Positions 52,481 through 57,888 of a DNA stretch of 64,000 nucleotides are shown here, one piece after another (within the stretch, counting starts at the first letter, position 1; each line of letters starts with the position of its first letter). The DNA is from Saitoella complicata NRRL Y-17804 (taxonomy: Eukaryota > Ascomycota > Saitoellomycetes > Saitoellales > Saitoellaceae). The notes beneath the pieces are model-generated. The model searched no databases. It saw nothing but the letters and a program-made list of their open reading frames with translations, and was not told the DNA's origin. Location: positions 62,001-126,000 of the forward strand of contig NW_017567022.1 in NCBI RefSeq assembly GCF_001661265.1, written 5' to 3'. The position numbers and the translations under genes were made by a program.

Positions 52481-52672
52481 GCTTTCGAGACGCCAACATG
52501 CACGCGGTGAGGGCTGCGGCCATTTTCCCACGACCCCAGGGCCTATCTGTGACGATACCCAATAGATGGAGTGGAAAAGGTAGTATTACCTAGATGAGGG
52601 GGTAGTTCCCTTATATGCTAGCTAGTCAGGGATAGGGGTAAGCTCTGCATGTGGCTATGTCTTCCCTAACAC

Positions 52673-52702
52673 TACTGCTGTGTGCAAAATCCTTGACGCG
52701 CA
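52673..52702 (+). repeat. Left terminal inverted repeat
   Basis: TA then CTGCTGTGTGCAAAATCC and TTGACGCGCAT; pairs with 55,208-55,239. Confidence 0.8.
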
Positions 52703-52793
52703 TTTTCGTACATGCGCGAGACCCCTGTAACGGTAACATAAAACACCTCCAAACAGCTCGAAAAAGGGTCTAGGAAACTCAGTAAGGGTCGAA

Positions 52794-53292
52794 ATGCTTG
52801 GGAAGATATGTGCCGATGTCGACCGCGACAAGGTAATCAACCAATATGCTTCTGCGAAGGATGTCTACGAAATAGCGACCGACATTGAGAGGTCTCCTCG
52901 CACGGTTTACCGAATTGTGATTCGAGGAGACAGGGCTTACTGAGCGTAAGGGCAACTCAACCTGCGGGCGCAAATCGGCTGTTGACGAGTTTCTGGGCTC
53001 GGTAAGTAGACTATTACTGCTCATGGGTACCACCAAGGGCATGACTAAATGACCGCAGCAAATCAAGTACTTGTACGACAAAAACCCTACCCTGTATCAA
53101 GACGACTGTGCTGAGTTCCTCAATGATCAATTCGCTACATCTCTATCGCGCTACCATGTCACCCGCTACCTGCAAAAGATTGGATATACCCGTAAGGTTT
53201 TGACCTTACGGGCAGCCCAGCGCAACCCTATCTTACGCGCAAACCATGCCATTGAAATGGCTGACTATATATATACTGTGGTTATGCGCTGA
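52794..53292 (+). pseudogene. Tc1/mariner-like transposase remnant
   Basis: The N-terminal DNA-binding half is readable. An HTH block (DRDKVINQYASAKDVYEIATDIERSPRTVYRIV in two parts) is followed after a frame change at about 52,917-52,921 by FEETGLTERKGNSTCGRKSA. A 57-base intron (53,002-53,058, GTAAGT..ATGACTAAATGACCGCAG) leads on to YDKNPTLYQDDCAEFL and SRYHVTRYLQKIGYTRK. These patterns are typical of Tc1-family transposases in fungi. The frame stops at 53,292, and I cannot find the catalytic DDE core, so the gene is dead. Presence of an intron in the transposase is unusual but known for fungal DNA transposons. Confidence 0.7.
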
Positions 53293-53527
53293 CCGGCATG
53301 GATTTGCGCCAATATGTTGATAACAACCGTGAAATGGCCGCTCGAGCGGCTGAGCGGGTGTAGCTATCATTCATTAGTCCTTCTCAGTATTTTCATGAAT
53401 CAAAGGAACATTTCGTTCATTATTTACGTACTTGCCGTTCTCACGGGTCCTTTCCCTAACAAAATGGCCGGGAACTGCCCCACCTACGTAGCATGCGAGT
53501 GTAGCTCACTAGATTACGCTCCTCTGA

Positions 53528-53617
53528 GACAAGAATTATGCATGCTAAGGCAGGGCATGATGTTTTGTCAAGGATTGTGCACGCTCAATACCTGCCTTAG
53601 CGTGCATAATTCTTGAC
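53528..53617. repeat. Internal inverted-repeat knot
   Basis: The 27 bases at 53,528-53,554 and 53,591-53,617 are inverted copies (25 of 27 match; CCTGCCTTAGC then (A/G)TGCATAATTCTTG). Between them, 53,567-53,590 is a third end-like sequence (GTCAAGGATTGTGCACGCTCAATA). All three resemble the outer ends (..GTGCAAAATTCTTGAC..), so at least two element ends meet here. Confidence 0.7.
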
Positions 53618-53699
53618 AACGTCGTTTCGTGCGCGAGTACAGGTTTGCAAAAGAATCAAGCATTGTGGATTGAAAAGCAGTACAGTACCACAGAGATAA

Positions 53700-55145
53700 C
53701 TATAAATCAAAGCTTTCGTCAAACTCCTGGCTTTCGTAAACCTCGAAGGGTGTCTCCTTGAGGCCTAGGGGACCCCTAGGCTTCGATTGCTGCTCCCGCT
53801 GGATACCTTTCCAAACCGGCCACCATTTGCGCATAATCCTCACCCATCCATGCTTCACAGGCGGTAGGCCATTCGGATCGATGTTCTTGAGATCGTCTAG
53901 CACTACTCCATTGTCGATAATTGCATCTCGAACCGTCTGGCAATCAAAGTCGATGTATTCCGGAACTTTGGTCTTGACATAGGCTAGAAACCCGTCCAAA
54001 TCATCAGCAGCCGGCCCTTGAAGAGGGCTCGAACCCCTGAGTATTTGCGGGTCAATGGTCGTGGTTGTTGGGGTTGGGGTCGGAGTAGGCTGACTCGAGG
54101 GAGGTAGCAGCAGTAGATCGAATCGAGGCGCAGTCACTGGTGTAAGTAGTTGAGGCATACCGAACGAAGAGTGCCTGCTTTCAGGTGTTTCCGATTGATC
54201 TGTCTCCTTGAATGGTATGAGCAACCCAGCGAAAAGGGGATCATGGATGGGTGGTTCCTCAACGGTAACCCCATGTTCTTTCGCGACCAAGTACTTAGAC
54301 CATAGATTGAGGAGATCATTGGTAATGTATCGATGTTGGTGAGAAAAAGGATGAACATAGCAGTACTGCTGGTGGTGCTTGGCGCATTTGTGCTTAGCCT
54401 GTAGGGTCTGAACAGCAAGGATCCTTTTGTAGTGTTGAGGATCATTCGCAAGTTCATTCGAAATGCCCTGGAGAGCAGTGTTGGTAGCACTGTGCCTAGG
54501 TCGAGGGATGAGAGGCTTTCGGGCCCTGGACTGAGTCTGAGAGGGGTGCAACGGGGTTTGCTGGTCGAACTCGAATTTAGAAGCAGCCCTTGTAGGGTCG
54601 TAGTGTGTTTCGATTAGGATAAAAGCTGGCCATTCGACCTTGGGTGTGTTGCGCTCAGTGTGGACGGCATCAATGAAGCCTTCCCAGTCGTCCTCCGTTC
54701 GTAGTCTACACCATGCTGCATCCCGGCTCCTTCCACGGCAGACTTTCCAGCTGATATTGGGCTTCAGGGAGTATTTGTTGACGCCTTCGACGACCATATG
54801 ATCATGACGGAGCTCCTCGAGGGCGACATCGATCAAAAGCTGCTCTTGGTCGGCCCAAGACTTGACTGGATTGACCGTCCAGGGTGCTTGAGGATACCTG
54901 TGGTTCTTTTGCCTAGTGACGAGAACGAAGACCTGGAAGTCGTCGAATCTGCTGATAGTATCAACCGGTGCGTCTTCGTCTTCGAGTTCCTTGACTGTCT
55001 TAGGCCGTTTTTCCCTCCGGACTGTATTTGTAGGTGGTGGTGAGTCTGCATCTTCGAGGGGTCGGGAGGGCAGTTTGGGGGTACGAGTCGATGCCCTGCG
55101 CTTATACGAAGCCTTAGCAGCTCCTTTCAGCTTCCTAGGAGGCAT
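53700..55145 (-). CDS. Transposon-borne cargo protein, unknown
   Basis: 481 residues from MPPRKLKG (55145). The frame is also open upstream, but that part reads through the terminal repeat. A basic N-terminus (KLKGAAKASYKRRASTRTPK) is followed by an ordered block (FDDFQVFVLVTRQKNHRYP; WADQEQLLIDVALEELRHD). A Cys/His cluster, C-x2-HH-x3-C and then His residues (about 254-271), suggests metal binding. A Pro/Thr linker (TPTPTPTTTT) leads to a helical C-terminal domain at about 383-452 (LDGFLAYVKTKVPEYIDFD; W-x-R-x2-RKWWPVWKG). From memory, basidiomycete genomes hold many repeat-linked proteins with a similar Cys/His then Leu/Trp pattern; I could not check this. The frame is intact, which argues for recent use. 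Confidence 0.65.
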   Translation of the reverse strand: MPPRKLKGAAKASYKRRASTRTPKLPSRPLEDADSPPPTNTVRREKRPKTVKELEDEDAPVDTISRFDDFQVFVLVTRQKNHRYPQAPWTVNPVKSWADQEQLLIDVALEELRHDHMVVEGVNKYSLKPNISWKVCRGRSRDAAWCRLRTEDDWEGFIDAVHTERNTPKVEWPAFILIETHYDPTRAASKFEFDQQTPLHPSQTQSRARKPLIPRPRHSATNTALQGISNELANDPQHYKRILAVQTLQAKHKCAKHHQQYCYVHPFSHQHRYITNDLLNLWSKYLVAKEHGVTVEEPPIHDPLFAGLLIPFKETDQSETPESRHSSFGMPQLLTPVTAPRFDLLLLPPSSQPTPTPTPTTTTIDPQILRGSSPLQGPAADDLDGFLAYVKTKVPEYIDFDCQTVRDAIIDNGVVLDDLKNIDPNGLPPVKHGWVRIMRKWWPVWKGIQREQQSKPRGPLGLKETPFEVYESQEFDESFDL

Positions 55146-55207
55146 TTTCAAGGTTTGGCGGCGTGTTTGGTGGATTGGTCGCGTCCTGCACGAACATGCG
55201 GTAAAAT

Positions 55208-55239
55208 GATGCGCGTCAAGAATTTTGCACACAGCAGTA
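55208..55239 (-). repeat. Right terminal inverted repeat
   Basis: ATGCGCGTCAAGAATT then TTGCACACAGCAG and the TA target site. It is nearly perfectly paired with the left end. Confidence 0.8.
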
Positions 55240-55284
55240 TCTGCACCCCGCACTCATCTCCTGCCACGTATAACCAACCACACA

Positions 55285-57888
55285 ATGACAACCCTCACCG
55301 CAAAAATAAAACAGATCCTCCCAGACCCAACACTCCTCCTCCTCCAGAACCCCTCCTCCCCCTCTCAAACCCGTCAAATCGCAATCCACGGCATCACCAT
55401 CCCCAGACTCCGCCGCGAAGGGGATGAAGATGGTGCATGGGACGCGAGGGAGTATTTGAGGAAGATGGTGGTGGGGAAGGTCGTGAGGTTTAGGGTTGTG
55501 TATACCGCTGCAGGCAGGGAGTATGCGAGGGTTTGGGTTGATGGGGGGGAGGATCTCGCTCTTCACCTTCTGCGAGCTGGATGGGCTAAACTCCGCTCCA
55601 CTCCTTCCTGCGACGAAGACGACACAGCAGCCTACACCGAAGCCGAGTCATCCGCCCGCTCCGCCTCCCTCGGCCTCTGGGCCCCCACCTCCAACATCTA
55701 CGCCTCCTACGACACACCCCCCAACCCCGCCTCCTTCCTCGCACAATGGCAAAACAAACAAATCGACGCCGTAATCGAACAAGTCCGTGCCGGAGATCTC
55801 GTCCGCGCCCGTCTGATACTGTCACCCGCCCAGCACCAATACCTCCCCCTCATCCTCGGCGGGGTGCGGTGTCCCACTTCCCCACGGACCGAGCCCACCA
55901 CTGGTGCCGTCCTCGATGCGGGCGAGGAATTTGGGGATGCGGCACGAGCGTTCACCGAAGCGCGACTCCTCCAGCGCTCGGTCAAAGTACAGCTTTTGGG
56001 GACTACGTCGAGTGGGGGACAGTTCGTCGCGAACATCATCCATCCCGCGGGTGATATCGGCGCTCTCATCCTCGCGTCCGGCTTGGGACGGGTGGTGGAT
56101 TGGATGAGTGGTATGGTCGGTGTGGAGAGGATGGGTATGCTTCGTGCTACGGAGGCGAGGGGGAGGGGTGCGGGGGTTGGGGTGTGGAAGAACACCACCA
56201 ACACACTGGGGAAGGAAAAGGGGTTCGAGGCGGTTGTTGTGAGGATTGTGTCAGCCGATACGATCCTCGTCGAAGCCCAGAACATGGAACGCAGAATCCG
56301 GCTCTCGTCGCTGCGTGCGCCCCGTGCCACCGACAGCGCACAAGCACCCTTCGTCACTCTCGCGCGGGAGTGGCTCCGTCGTCGACTGATCGGGAAAACC
56401 GTACGCGTCCAGATCGACTCCACCACCAAACCCTCTGCCGCTTCCAATGCCGACTCGATCGATGTCGCGACCGTCACCGTCGGCAACACGAATACGAATG
56501 TAGGGCTGGAGGGCGTCCAAAAAGGTTGGTTGTCCGTCCTGAGGCATAGAGCGGACGACACCCATCGTGCGCCTGGCTCCATCTACGACGCACTCATCGC
56601 GGCCGAAGCTGCGGCGCAGGATTCACATGTTGGCATGTGGTCACCCAAACCACCGGGAGCAGTGGGGGCTGGGAGGGTGGTGGATGCGAGTGAGAGCGTG
56701 ACAAGGGCGAAGGGGCATATCAATGCGCTCACCCGGGCGGGGCGGGTTGGGGGTGTGGTTGAGCATGTGTTTTCTGGCAGCAGGTTTAAAATCCTCCTCA
56801 AACATCAAGGAGAAACCAAGATTACGTTCGTCCTCCGTGACGTACGCTCCCCACGCTCGGACGAATCACACGGAAAGGAGGCATTGGAGTATGCGACCCG
56901 GAGGTTCCTGCAGCGCGATGTCGAGGTTGAGATCAATAACGTTGATCGTGGGGGGGCATTTATGGGAGCTATGTTCTTGGGGGGTCGGGATGTGGGAGTG
57001 GGGATGGTGGAGGGGGGGTTGGGGTGGGTTGGGGAGTATGTCGCTGGTCCTGGTGCTGGGGTGTTAAGGGAGGCGGAGGGGAGGGCGAAAGAAACCAAAA
57101 AGGGTGTGTGGAAGGACTATCAACCCGAAGCTGAGGCGGCTGTGGTAAGAGAGGGAGGGGAGAATGGGAGTGGGCGTGGGGGTGGGGAGAGGGAGTATGT
57201 GGATGTTGTCGTCACGGAGGTTGAGAGTCAGGGGAGGTTTTGGGTACAGCTCATTACGCCCAAAATCCAGGAACTCGAGATACTCATGCGGGATCTCCAA
57301 GTCGCCTCGTCCGCTGCTTCCCTGTCTGGTCCACCCCGCGTCGGGGATCAACTTCAGGCGAAATCGGCCCAGGATGGGATGTGGTACCGGGCTCGCGTCA
57401 GACGTGTCGATCGTGCTGCTGCAAAGGCGGAGGTGGTGTTTGTGGATTACGGCAACACCGAACACATACCATTCGCAAACCTCCGACTGGGCGCACCCTC
57501 CGGGTTGCCGCCACAAGCACAGGAGGCAACATTATCATTCATCCGTCCCCCACCTGCCGGAAGCGAGTACGCCCTCGACGCACGCGCCTCCCTCGCCTCC
57601 CTCATCACAAACCGCCAACTCGTCGCATGCATCGATCGTAGCCCCGGCGGCTCCCCACTCGAACTCACCCTCTACGACCCCACGAATAGCGCGAGTGTTG
57701 ATCCGAGTGAGAGTGTTAATGCGGAGATGGTGAGGGAGGGGATGTGTCGTGTCGTGCCACAGAAGGAACGGGGGTGGGAGAAGGCGTTTGCGGGGGTGTT
57801 GACGGGGTTGGAGGAGAAGGAGGGGGAGGCGAGGAGGGGGAGGAGGGGGATTTGGGAGTATGGGGATGTGTTTGGGGATGATGAGTAG
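55285..57888 (+). CDS. snd1: Tudor-SN (p100/SND1) nuclease
   Basis: 867 residues, no intron, from the ATG at 55285 (MTTLTAKIKQIL); the frame is also open upstream to 55225, but that stretch includes the end of the transposon. Four staphylococcal-nuclease-like repeats are followed by a Tudor domain fused into a fifth. The first repeat shows LTAKIKQILPDPTLLL, ITIPRLRRE and AREYLRKMVVGKVVRF. The Tudor part (about residues 685-740) shows GMWYRARVRRVD and VVFVDYGNTEHIPF, with aromatic-cage residues. Tudor-SN acts in RNA processing, decay of edited or stress RNAs and stress granules. In fungi it is usually cytoplasmic. It ends 85 bases from the FPGS stop codon on the opposite strand, so the two 3' ends probably overlap. 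Confidence 0.92.
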   Translation: MTTLTAKIKQILPDPTLLLLQNPSSPSQTRQIAIHGITIPRLRREGDEDGAWDAREYLRKMVVGKVVRFRVVYTAAGREYARVWVDGGEDLALHLLRAGWAKLRSTPSCDEDDTAAYTEAESSARSASLGLWAPTSNIYASYDTPPNPASFLAQWQNKQIDAVIEQVRAGDLVRARLILSPAQHQYLPLILGGVRCPTSPRTEPTTGAVLDAGEEFGDAARAFTEARLLQRSVKVQLLGTTSSGGQFVANIIHPAGDIGALILASGLGRVVDWMSGMVGVERMGMLRATEARGRGAGVGVWKNTTNTLGKEKGFEAVVVRIVSADTILVEAQNMERRIRLSSLRAPRATDSAQAPFVTLAREWLRRRLIGKTVRVQIDSTTKPSAASNADSIDVATVTVGNTNTNVGLEGVQKGWLSVLRHRADDTHRAPGSIYDALIAAEAAAQDSHVGMWSPKPPGAVGAGRVVDASESVTRAKGHINALTRAGRVGGVVEHVFSGSRFKILLKHQGETKITFVLRDVRSPRSDESHGKEALEYATRRFLQRDVEVEINNVDRGGAFMGAMFLGGRDVGVGMVEGGLGWVGEYVAGPGAGVLREAEGRAKETKKGVWKDYQPEAEAAVVREGGENGSGRGGGEREYVDVVVTEVESQGRFWVQLITPKIQELEILMRDLQVASSAASLSGPPRVGDQLQAKSAQDGMWYRARVRRVDRAAAKAEVVFVDYGNTEHIPFANLRLGAPSGLPPQAQEATLSFIRPPPAGSEYALDARASLASLITNRQLVACIDRSPGGSPLELTLYDPTNSASVDPSESVNAEMVREGMCRVVPQKERGWEKAFAGVLTGLEEKEGEARRGRRGIWEYGDVFGDDE

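Follow-up and report, generated by a model that had tools for sequence, protein, structure and literature searches.

Tc1/mariner transposons are the textbook case of transposition by a single protein, with standard members that carry a transposase alone, and several of them are used as laboratory tools. The element considered here occupies positions 52673..55239 (plus strand) of the window, by which we mean the whole stretch of 64,000 nucleotides analysed from contig NW_017567022.1 of Saitoella complicata NRRL Y-17804. It comprises 2567 bp including both TA copies, has its transposase side at the left and, as judged from its sequence, is a dead or dying copy, having arisen by private deletions from a Tc1/mariner family (IS630-type, DD35E) that has two genes.

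Tc1/mariner elements with additional or divided coding content have been described before. The TBE and Tec elements of ciliates belong to Tc1/mariner and carry further genes besides the transposase, of which one is inverted, and purifying selection has been reported for the TBE genes (PMC4724952, PMC7325037). Among fungi, Tc1-OP1 of Ogataea parapolymorpha contains one open reading frame (ORF) of 1155 aa, composed of a serine-rich domain and the transposase, together with ends of 169 bp and a DD40E signature (PMC9977792). TremE and TremF of Paracoccidioides are fungal Tc1/mariner elements with two ORFs, which code for different proteins according to the authors; the ORFs of TremE encode 335 and 217 aa at nt 78-1085 and 1113-1766, TremD, which is grouped with TremE, has a single ORF of 559 aa, and the CENPB and DDE parts of TremF are located on its two ORFs (PMC2836289). 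The single ORF of TremD suggests that TremE contains a split transposase.

The two-gene family in the genome

All searches were made in the genome to which the window belongs (14.1 Mb, 34 contigs). The element as query gave 101 matching pieces, and 36 stretches were examined, of which 17 hold close copies or pieces, 14 distant ones and five very distant ones; the loci carry L numbers, and the subfamilies A to E represent our own grouping. A scan of the 36 stretches for paired ends, which required the TA, was complemented by a search with the terminal 31-mer of the window copy including its TA (up to eight mismatches). TA-bounded end pairs are present in 20 of the 36 stretches and, together with the window copy, make up 21 copies. 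The sister copies with the same ends bear out the assignment to a Tc1/mariner-type mobile unit made by the first-pass annotation of the window. Between copies, the 50 bases neighbouring these 21 elements are alike at 23 positions at most, except for L030 and L031 (47/50), where a small element abuts both. The TA target duplication, a hallmark of Tc1/mariner, is found at the window site as well as in the listed copies.

The full layout is represented by the sister copy L009 (3128 bp, ends matching at 31/31 positions), in which both genes are open. A two-exon transposase gene starts at the left side and is read to the right, while the second gene, referred to as ORF2, is read to the left from the right end; the two converge on 377 bp of intergenic sequence. 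The transposase of L009 is encoded by exon 1 with 71 codons, containing the helix-turn-helix (HTH) part, and exon 2 with 275 codons, separated by a predicted intron of 57 nt. The spliced product of 346 aa matches DDE_3 (2.7e-32) as well as HTH_29 and HTH_23 above cutoff, and the exon 2 frame alone passes the NCBIfam IS630 model (2.3e-36). The two catalytic D residues of L009 are spaced by 84 residues, and the second D and the E by 35 residues in L009 and L028 and by 34 in L043. A strict intron pattern search of the transposase reported no intron, because its branch-site rule does not fit; the intron position was assigned by visual inspection and from the donor hexamers: GTAAGT or GTGAGT occurs at the matching place in subfamilies B (L026, L028) and C (L033, L034, L036), and neither hexamer is found there in L037 and L040. 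The transposase exon of L026 (L026:3524-4351, minus strand) is open, but its second catalytic D is replaced by H, so that the gene is probably dead despite its intact frame. Scans with single proteins, whose reach is limited to close relatives, returned no relatives of the transposase from IMG/VR, and none of ORF2 from IMG/VR or from bacterial and archaeal genomes. Proteins similar to ORF2 may exist in mushroom genomes.

ORF2 accompanies the transposase throughout the family. Protein searches of the genome detected at least 80 pieces of ORF2 and at least 81 of the transposase, falling into at least 45 and at least 52 clusters, respectively. ORF2 lies within 4.5 kb of 38 of the 52 transposase clusters, two of these pairings using one common ORF2 cluster, and the orientation is convergent in all 38 cases. 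The content of a single transposase gene, a usual but not obligatory trait of Tc1/mariner, is therefore not seen here. Compared with L009, the ORF2 proteins of subfamily B are 49-57% identical, those of C 34-42% and the single copy of D 38-44%; in E, identity across the longer pieces is 24-26%. The distances of ORF2 and transposase are correlated, with a Mantel r of 0.877 for the 24 loci where both proteins are sufficiently represented (270 of 276 pairs), which is reached in 0 of 5000 permutations. In the tree of either protein, each of the subfamilies B, C and E is a single clade. The 481-codon gene of the window, which had been regarded as cargo, is thus a standard component of the family, even in the most divergent of these subfamilies. 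A recently acquired host gene as cargo was rejected on account of the same recurrence of ORF2 in divergent subfamilies. Equally, the chance that two unrelated elements or a host gene merely came to lie between similar ends is negligible: an internal inverted repeat does resemble inner ends, as expected of such a nest, but 38 clusters show the two genes in an identical arrangement, and the recurrent TA-bounded copies at unrelated sites led us to reject this explanation.

Some further members of the family deserve mention. A very divergent two-gene copy of subfamily E (L040:296-3319) is located on the same contig about 47 kb to the right of the element, beyond the window, and has ends of 51 nt with 98% complementarity. 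Subfamily B (L026, L027, L028, L031, L032) contains mosaic elements: of six copies set against L028, four are 96-99.5% identical in the ORF2 half and 91-96% in the transposase half, which points to a possible exchange of halves among copies. This pattern is absent from L030 and L038 in the parts covered. In addition, a gene-less element of 0.6 kb is present at L031:4390-5001, L030:5166-5776 and L036:694-1303. It abuts the ORF2 end of the larger element in L030 and L031, with one TA in common, and is situated just before a transposase in L036. The copy in L031, the one compared, has the same 26-nt end as the family, and 22 copies including this one cover at least 609 of 612 bases at 83-100% identity. 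Such a number of near-full copies of a gene-less element makes movement in trans likely in this genome.

A possible role of ORF2 in transposition

The comparison of ORF2 between subfamilies A and B gave ratios of nonsynonymous to synonymous substitution rates (dN/dS) of 0.28, 0.29 and 0.38 for L009 against L028, L031 and L026, respectively. Within subfamily B, 20 of the 41 changes between L028 and L031, a pair picked after 19 pairs had been seen, are synonymous, compared to 10.0 expected without selection (P 0.0009). Within subfamily A, dN/dS values of 0.3-0.5, based on few changes, were obtained for L009 against L010, L016 and L023. On these substitution patterns, ORF2 seems to have been needed by the family in the past, with no sign of such a need in the window copy. 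The apparently long retention of the gene by the family is a hint that ORF2 helps the element to jump.

The intergenic stretch of L009 contains a palindrome with 56-nt arms (95%), in which the core of the element ends, GTGCAAAATTCTTGAC, occurs four times at one to three mismatches, arranged as two pairs 39 bp apart; three of the four are retained in the window. Five end-core sites at up to three mismatches are present in the window, all of them inside the element and two of them representing the ends that defined the motif, and 20 mononucleotide shuffles of the window contain 0.4 such sites on average. The best match to each element's own end core was further compared with 400 shuffles of the respective intergenic stretch. 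None of the shuffles equalled the observed match in three copies of subfamily A and two of subfamily C, and three did so in the copy of subfamily D. The intergenic end-core motifs may be regarded as candidate binding sites for either the transposase or ORF2.

Taken together, the sequences show a two-gene Tc1/mariner family, of which the window holds a broken copy, and we consider it likely that ORF2 is an accessory transposition protein; the lesions of the window copy probably arose after landing. The transposase would cut at the ends and insert at TA by the established cut-and-paste route of Tc1/mariner, ORF2 would most likely bind DNA or the transposase, and the intergenic end-core motifs would be candidate sites for this binding. 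A more far-reaching version, in which the family represents a new lineage of two-component Tc1/mariner elements and ORF2 acts as an obligate partner of the transposase via the core sites at the ends and between the genes, is put forward tentatively and appears somewhat less probable than its negation.

A number of observations weigh against such a role of ORF2. The dN/dS values between subfamilies A and B were derived at dS values of 1.2-1.5, which is near saturation. In L028, ORF2 is interrupted at codon 24 by a stop, and that of L031 is split over two frames, and the test within subfamily B therefore reflects the past of these copies. Within subfamily A, comparisons of L009 with the window copy, L011, L012, L014 and L017 give dN/dS values close to 0.8 or higher, again with few changes, and selection on ORF2 is mostly not visible there. 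No ORF2 was found near 14 of the 52 transposase clusters, two of which lie beside runs of N, and eight of the 45 ORF2 clusters are without a nearby transposase. Subfamily D and part of A are placed differently in the two trees, and the two halves differ in divergence in four of the six subfamily B copies set against L028. Subfamily B has a weak internal motif only, for which 16 and 20 of 400 shuffles equalled the observed match in two copies and the best match lies at a different place, and the motif is absent from the single copy of subfamily E that was tested (396 of 400 shuffles). As to function, ORF2 has no family match in Pfam or NCBIfam (none at a Pfam E-value up to 10 for the 481-codon frame of the window, in agreement with the initial view that this gene is not a transposase), a profile search of PDB sequences gave three matches at E 0.5-0.7, which were taken as chance, and the structure model of full-length ORF2 is too poor for use, with a predicted local distance difference test score (pLDDT) of 34.5. 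Finally, all evidence comes from one genome.

It is also conceivable, if unlikely, that ORF2 serves the element for another purpose, such as target-site choice, a defence against silencing by the host or the regulation of the convergent genes, and that the transposase jumps without it. The multiplication of the 0.6-kb elements without ORF2 would be in line with this, as would L022, which retains part of the transposase and just 44 residues of ORF2. Nothing decisive stands against it, since conservation and co-inheritance suit either function, and an ORF2 protein acting as an accessory transposition factor could reach the gene-less elements in trans.

The window copy and its insertion site

The left terminal inverted repeat of the window copy (52673..52703, plus strand) is identical to the right one (55209..55239, minus strand, 31 nt) at 30 of 31 positions, with TA as the outermost bases, which confirms the near-complete outer repeats within TA seen in the first-pass annotation. 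They enclose transposase exon 1 (52794..53001, plus strand), which corresponds to the HTH part with its HTH_29/HTH_23 match in the intact sister L009, an intron of 57 nt predicted by eye (GTAAGT...CAG, 53002..53058, plus strand) and a remnant of exon 2 (53059..53363, plus strand; DDE_3 E = 1.7e-32 for sister L009). Compared to L009, the window copy shows 66 substitutions over 2561 aligned bases. Near 52919, the loss of 5 bp breaks the frame of exon 1, and a larger deletion of 523 bp at about 53268 takes all three catalytic residues, both D and the E, so that the transposase is indeed frame-broken and without its catalytic part. Further differences are a loss of 39 bp within the palindrome and an in-frame insertion of 6 bp in ORF2.

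The first-pass annotation had also described the element as composite. The supposed inner ends turned out to be the intergenic palindrome, which extends over 90 bp (53528..53617) in the window, has lost 39 bp of its centre relative to L009, carries three end-core motifs (53528-53543 and 53567-53582 on the minus strand, 53602-53617 on the plus strand) and is present in sister copies too. A complete nested element behind these inner repeats was considered and rejected, as the palindrome has neither CTGCTGT tips nor TA.

ORF2 of the window (53700..55145, minus strand) consists of 481 codons (53703-55145) and a stop codon (53700-53702) and is convergent with the transposase. The gene had been called intact, which is correct insofar as the frame is open. 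There is no sign of function in this copy, however: 11 of 42 changes are synonymous compared to 10.6 expected, and the frame stays open in 19% of neutral simulations. With changes at the neutral expectation, the open frame means little. A selected ORF2 gene in the window copy is unsupported by this synonymous count.

Both the frameshift and the 523-bp deletion are found in none of the nine other aligned copies that have letters at these positions; a tenth, L017, has none there. The lesions are thus private to the window copy, and they probably arose after landing. This bears on the earlier proposal of a non-autonomous unit with cargo, whose own transposase was already broken when it was mobilized in trans as a whole. 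Movement after breakage is not established by private lesions, with which breakage after landing is equally consistent. The 30/31 intact ends next to a dead transposase and the 22 near-full copies of the gene-less element speak for transport in trans, but well-matched ends (26-30 of 31 positions) are retained also in the older copies L015, L016 and L020, and the second gene is family content rather than a load. We regard this proposal as quite improbable. As for age, private substitutions amount to 0.82% in the window copy, to less in L009-L013 (0.19-0.41%) and to more in L014 (0.96%), L017 (1.22%) and L015, L016 and L020 (4.4-5.3%); with five copies lower and five higher, the window copy is of middling age within this sample. 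Decay by repeat-induced point mutation was dismissed, as C-to-T changes are not in excess among the 66 differences from L009 (8 C-to-T, 12 G-to-A).

The element adjoins a repeat resembling a solo long terminal repeat (LTR) with TG..CA termini (52548..52671, plus strand). To the left of this repeat lies CTATC (52543..52547), and its right counterpart is split into C-TA (52672-52674) and TA-TC (55238-55241), with the element between the two TAs. Removal of the element and one TA in silico restores CTATC, which indicates that the element entered a TA within the right target duplication of the solo LTR; the private lesions that removed the catalytic core of the transposase probably followed this event. 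The empty site can thus be reconstructed from this genome, with no need of a second strain. Two clear copies and two short pieces of the solo-LTR-like repeat were seen, and the second clear copy (L045:275-420) measures 146 bp and is flanked on both sides by its own 5-bp duplication TCCAC. On the other side, a Tudor-SN-like gene with SNase repeats and a TUDOR domain is located at 55285-57888 of the window, its first ATG 45 bp past the end of the element. The element and the solo LTR may have displaced the upstream region of this gene.

Comparison with known Tc1/mariner elements

The family shares with the Tc1/mariner (IS630-Tc1-mariner) elements the TA-flanked inverted ends, an HTH and DDE_3 transposase of 346 aa, the DD35E signature and the match to the NCBIfam IS630 model, and differs from them by its length of about 3.1 kb and the second, conserved and convergent gene. 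Other transposons, Harbinger and En/Spm, became two-component systems. If the proposed reading is true, a deeply diverged lineage in which a second gene has been retained would demonstrate that Tc1/mariner can become two-component as well, and ORF2, a family of no recognised function, would gain a testable role. The interest of the locus lies in this conserved second gene rather than in the window copy itself.

TBE and Tec offer a precedent for multi-gene Tc1/mariner elements and differ by their three ORFs (including a zinc-finger/kinase protein in TBE and a recombinase in Tec), their hosts and their ends, whereas the stretches between the ends of L009, L028 and L040 contain two genes alone among ORFs of at least 150 or 200 aa. 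Tc1-OP1, likewise unusual among the Tc1 elements of fungi, has additional coding sequence as part of the transposase ORF itself (PMC9977792). Searches of the open-access literature aimed at such elements turned up no fungal Tc1/mariner element with a separate second gene beyond TremE and TremF, a result that does not extend to Repbase or to papers outside the collection searched. These two share with the present family the organization as fungal two-ORF Tc1/mariner elements, but their ORFs are read here as split transposases.
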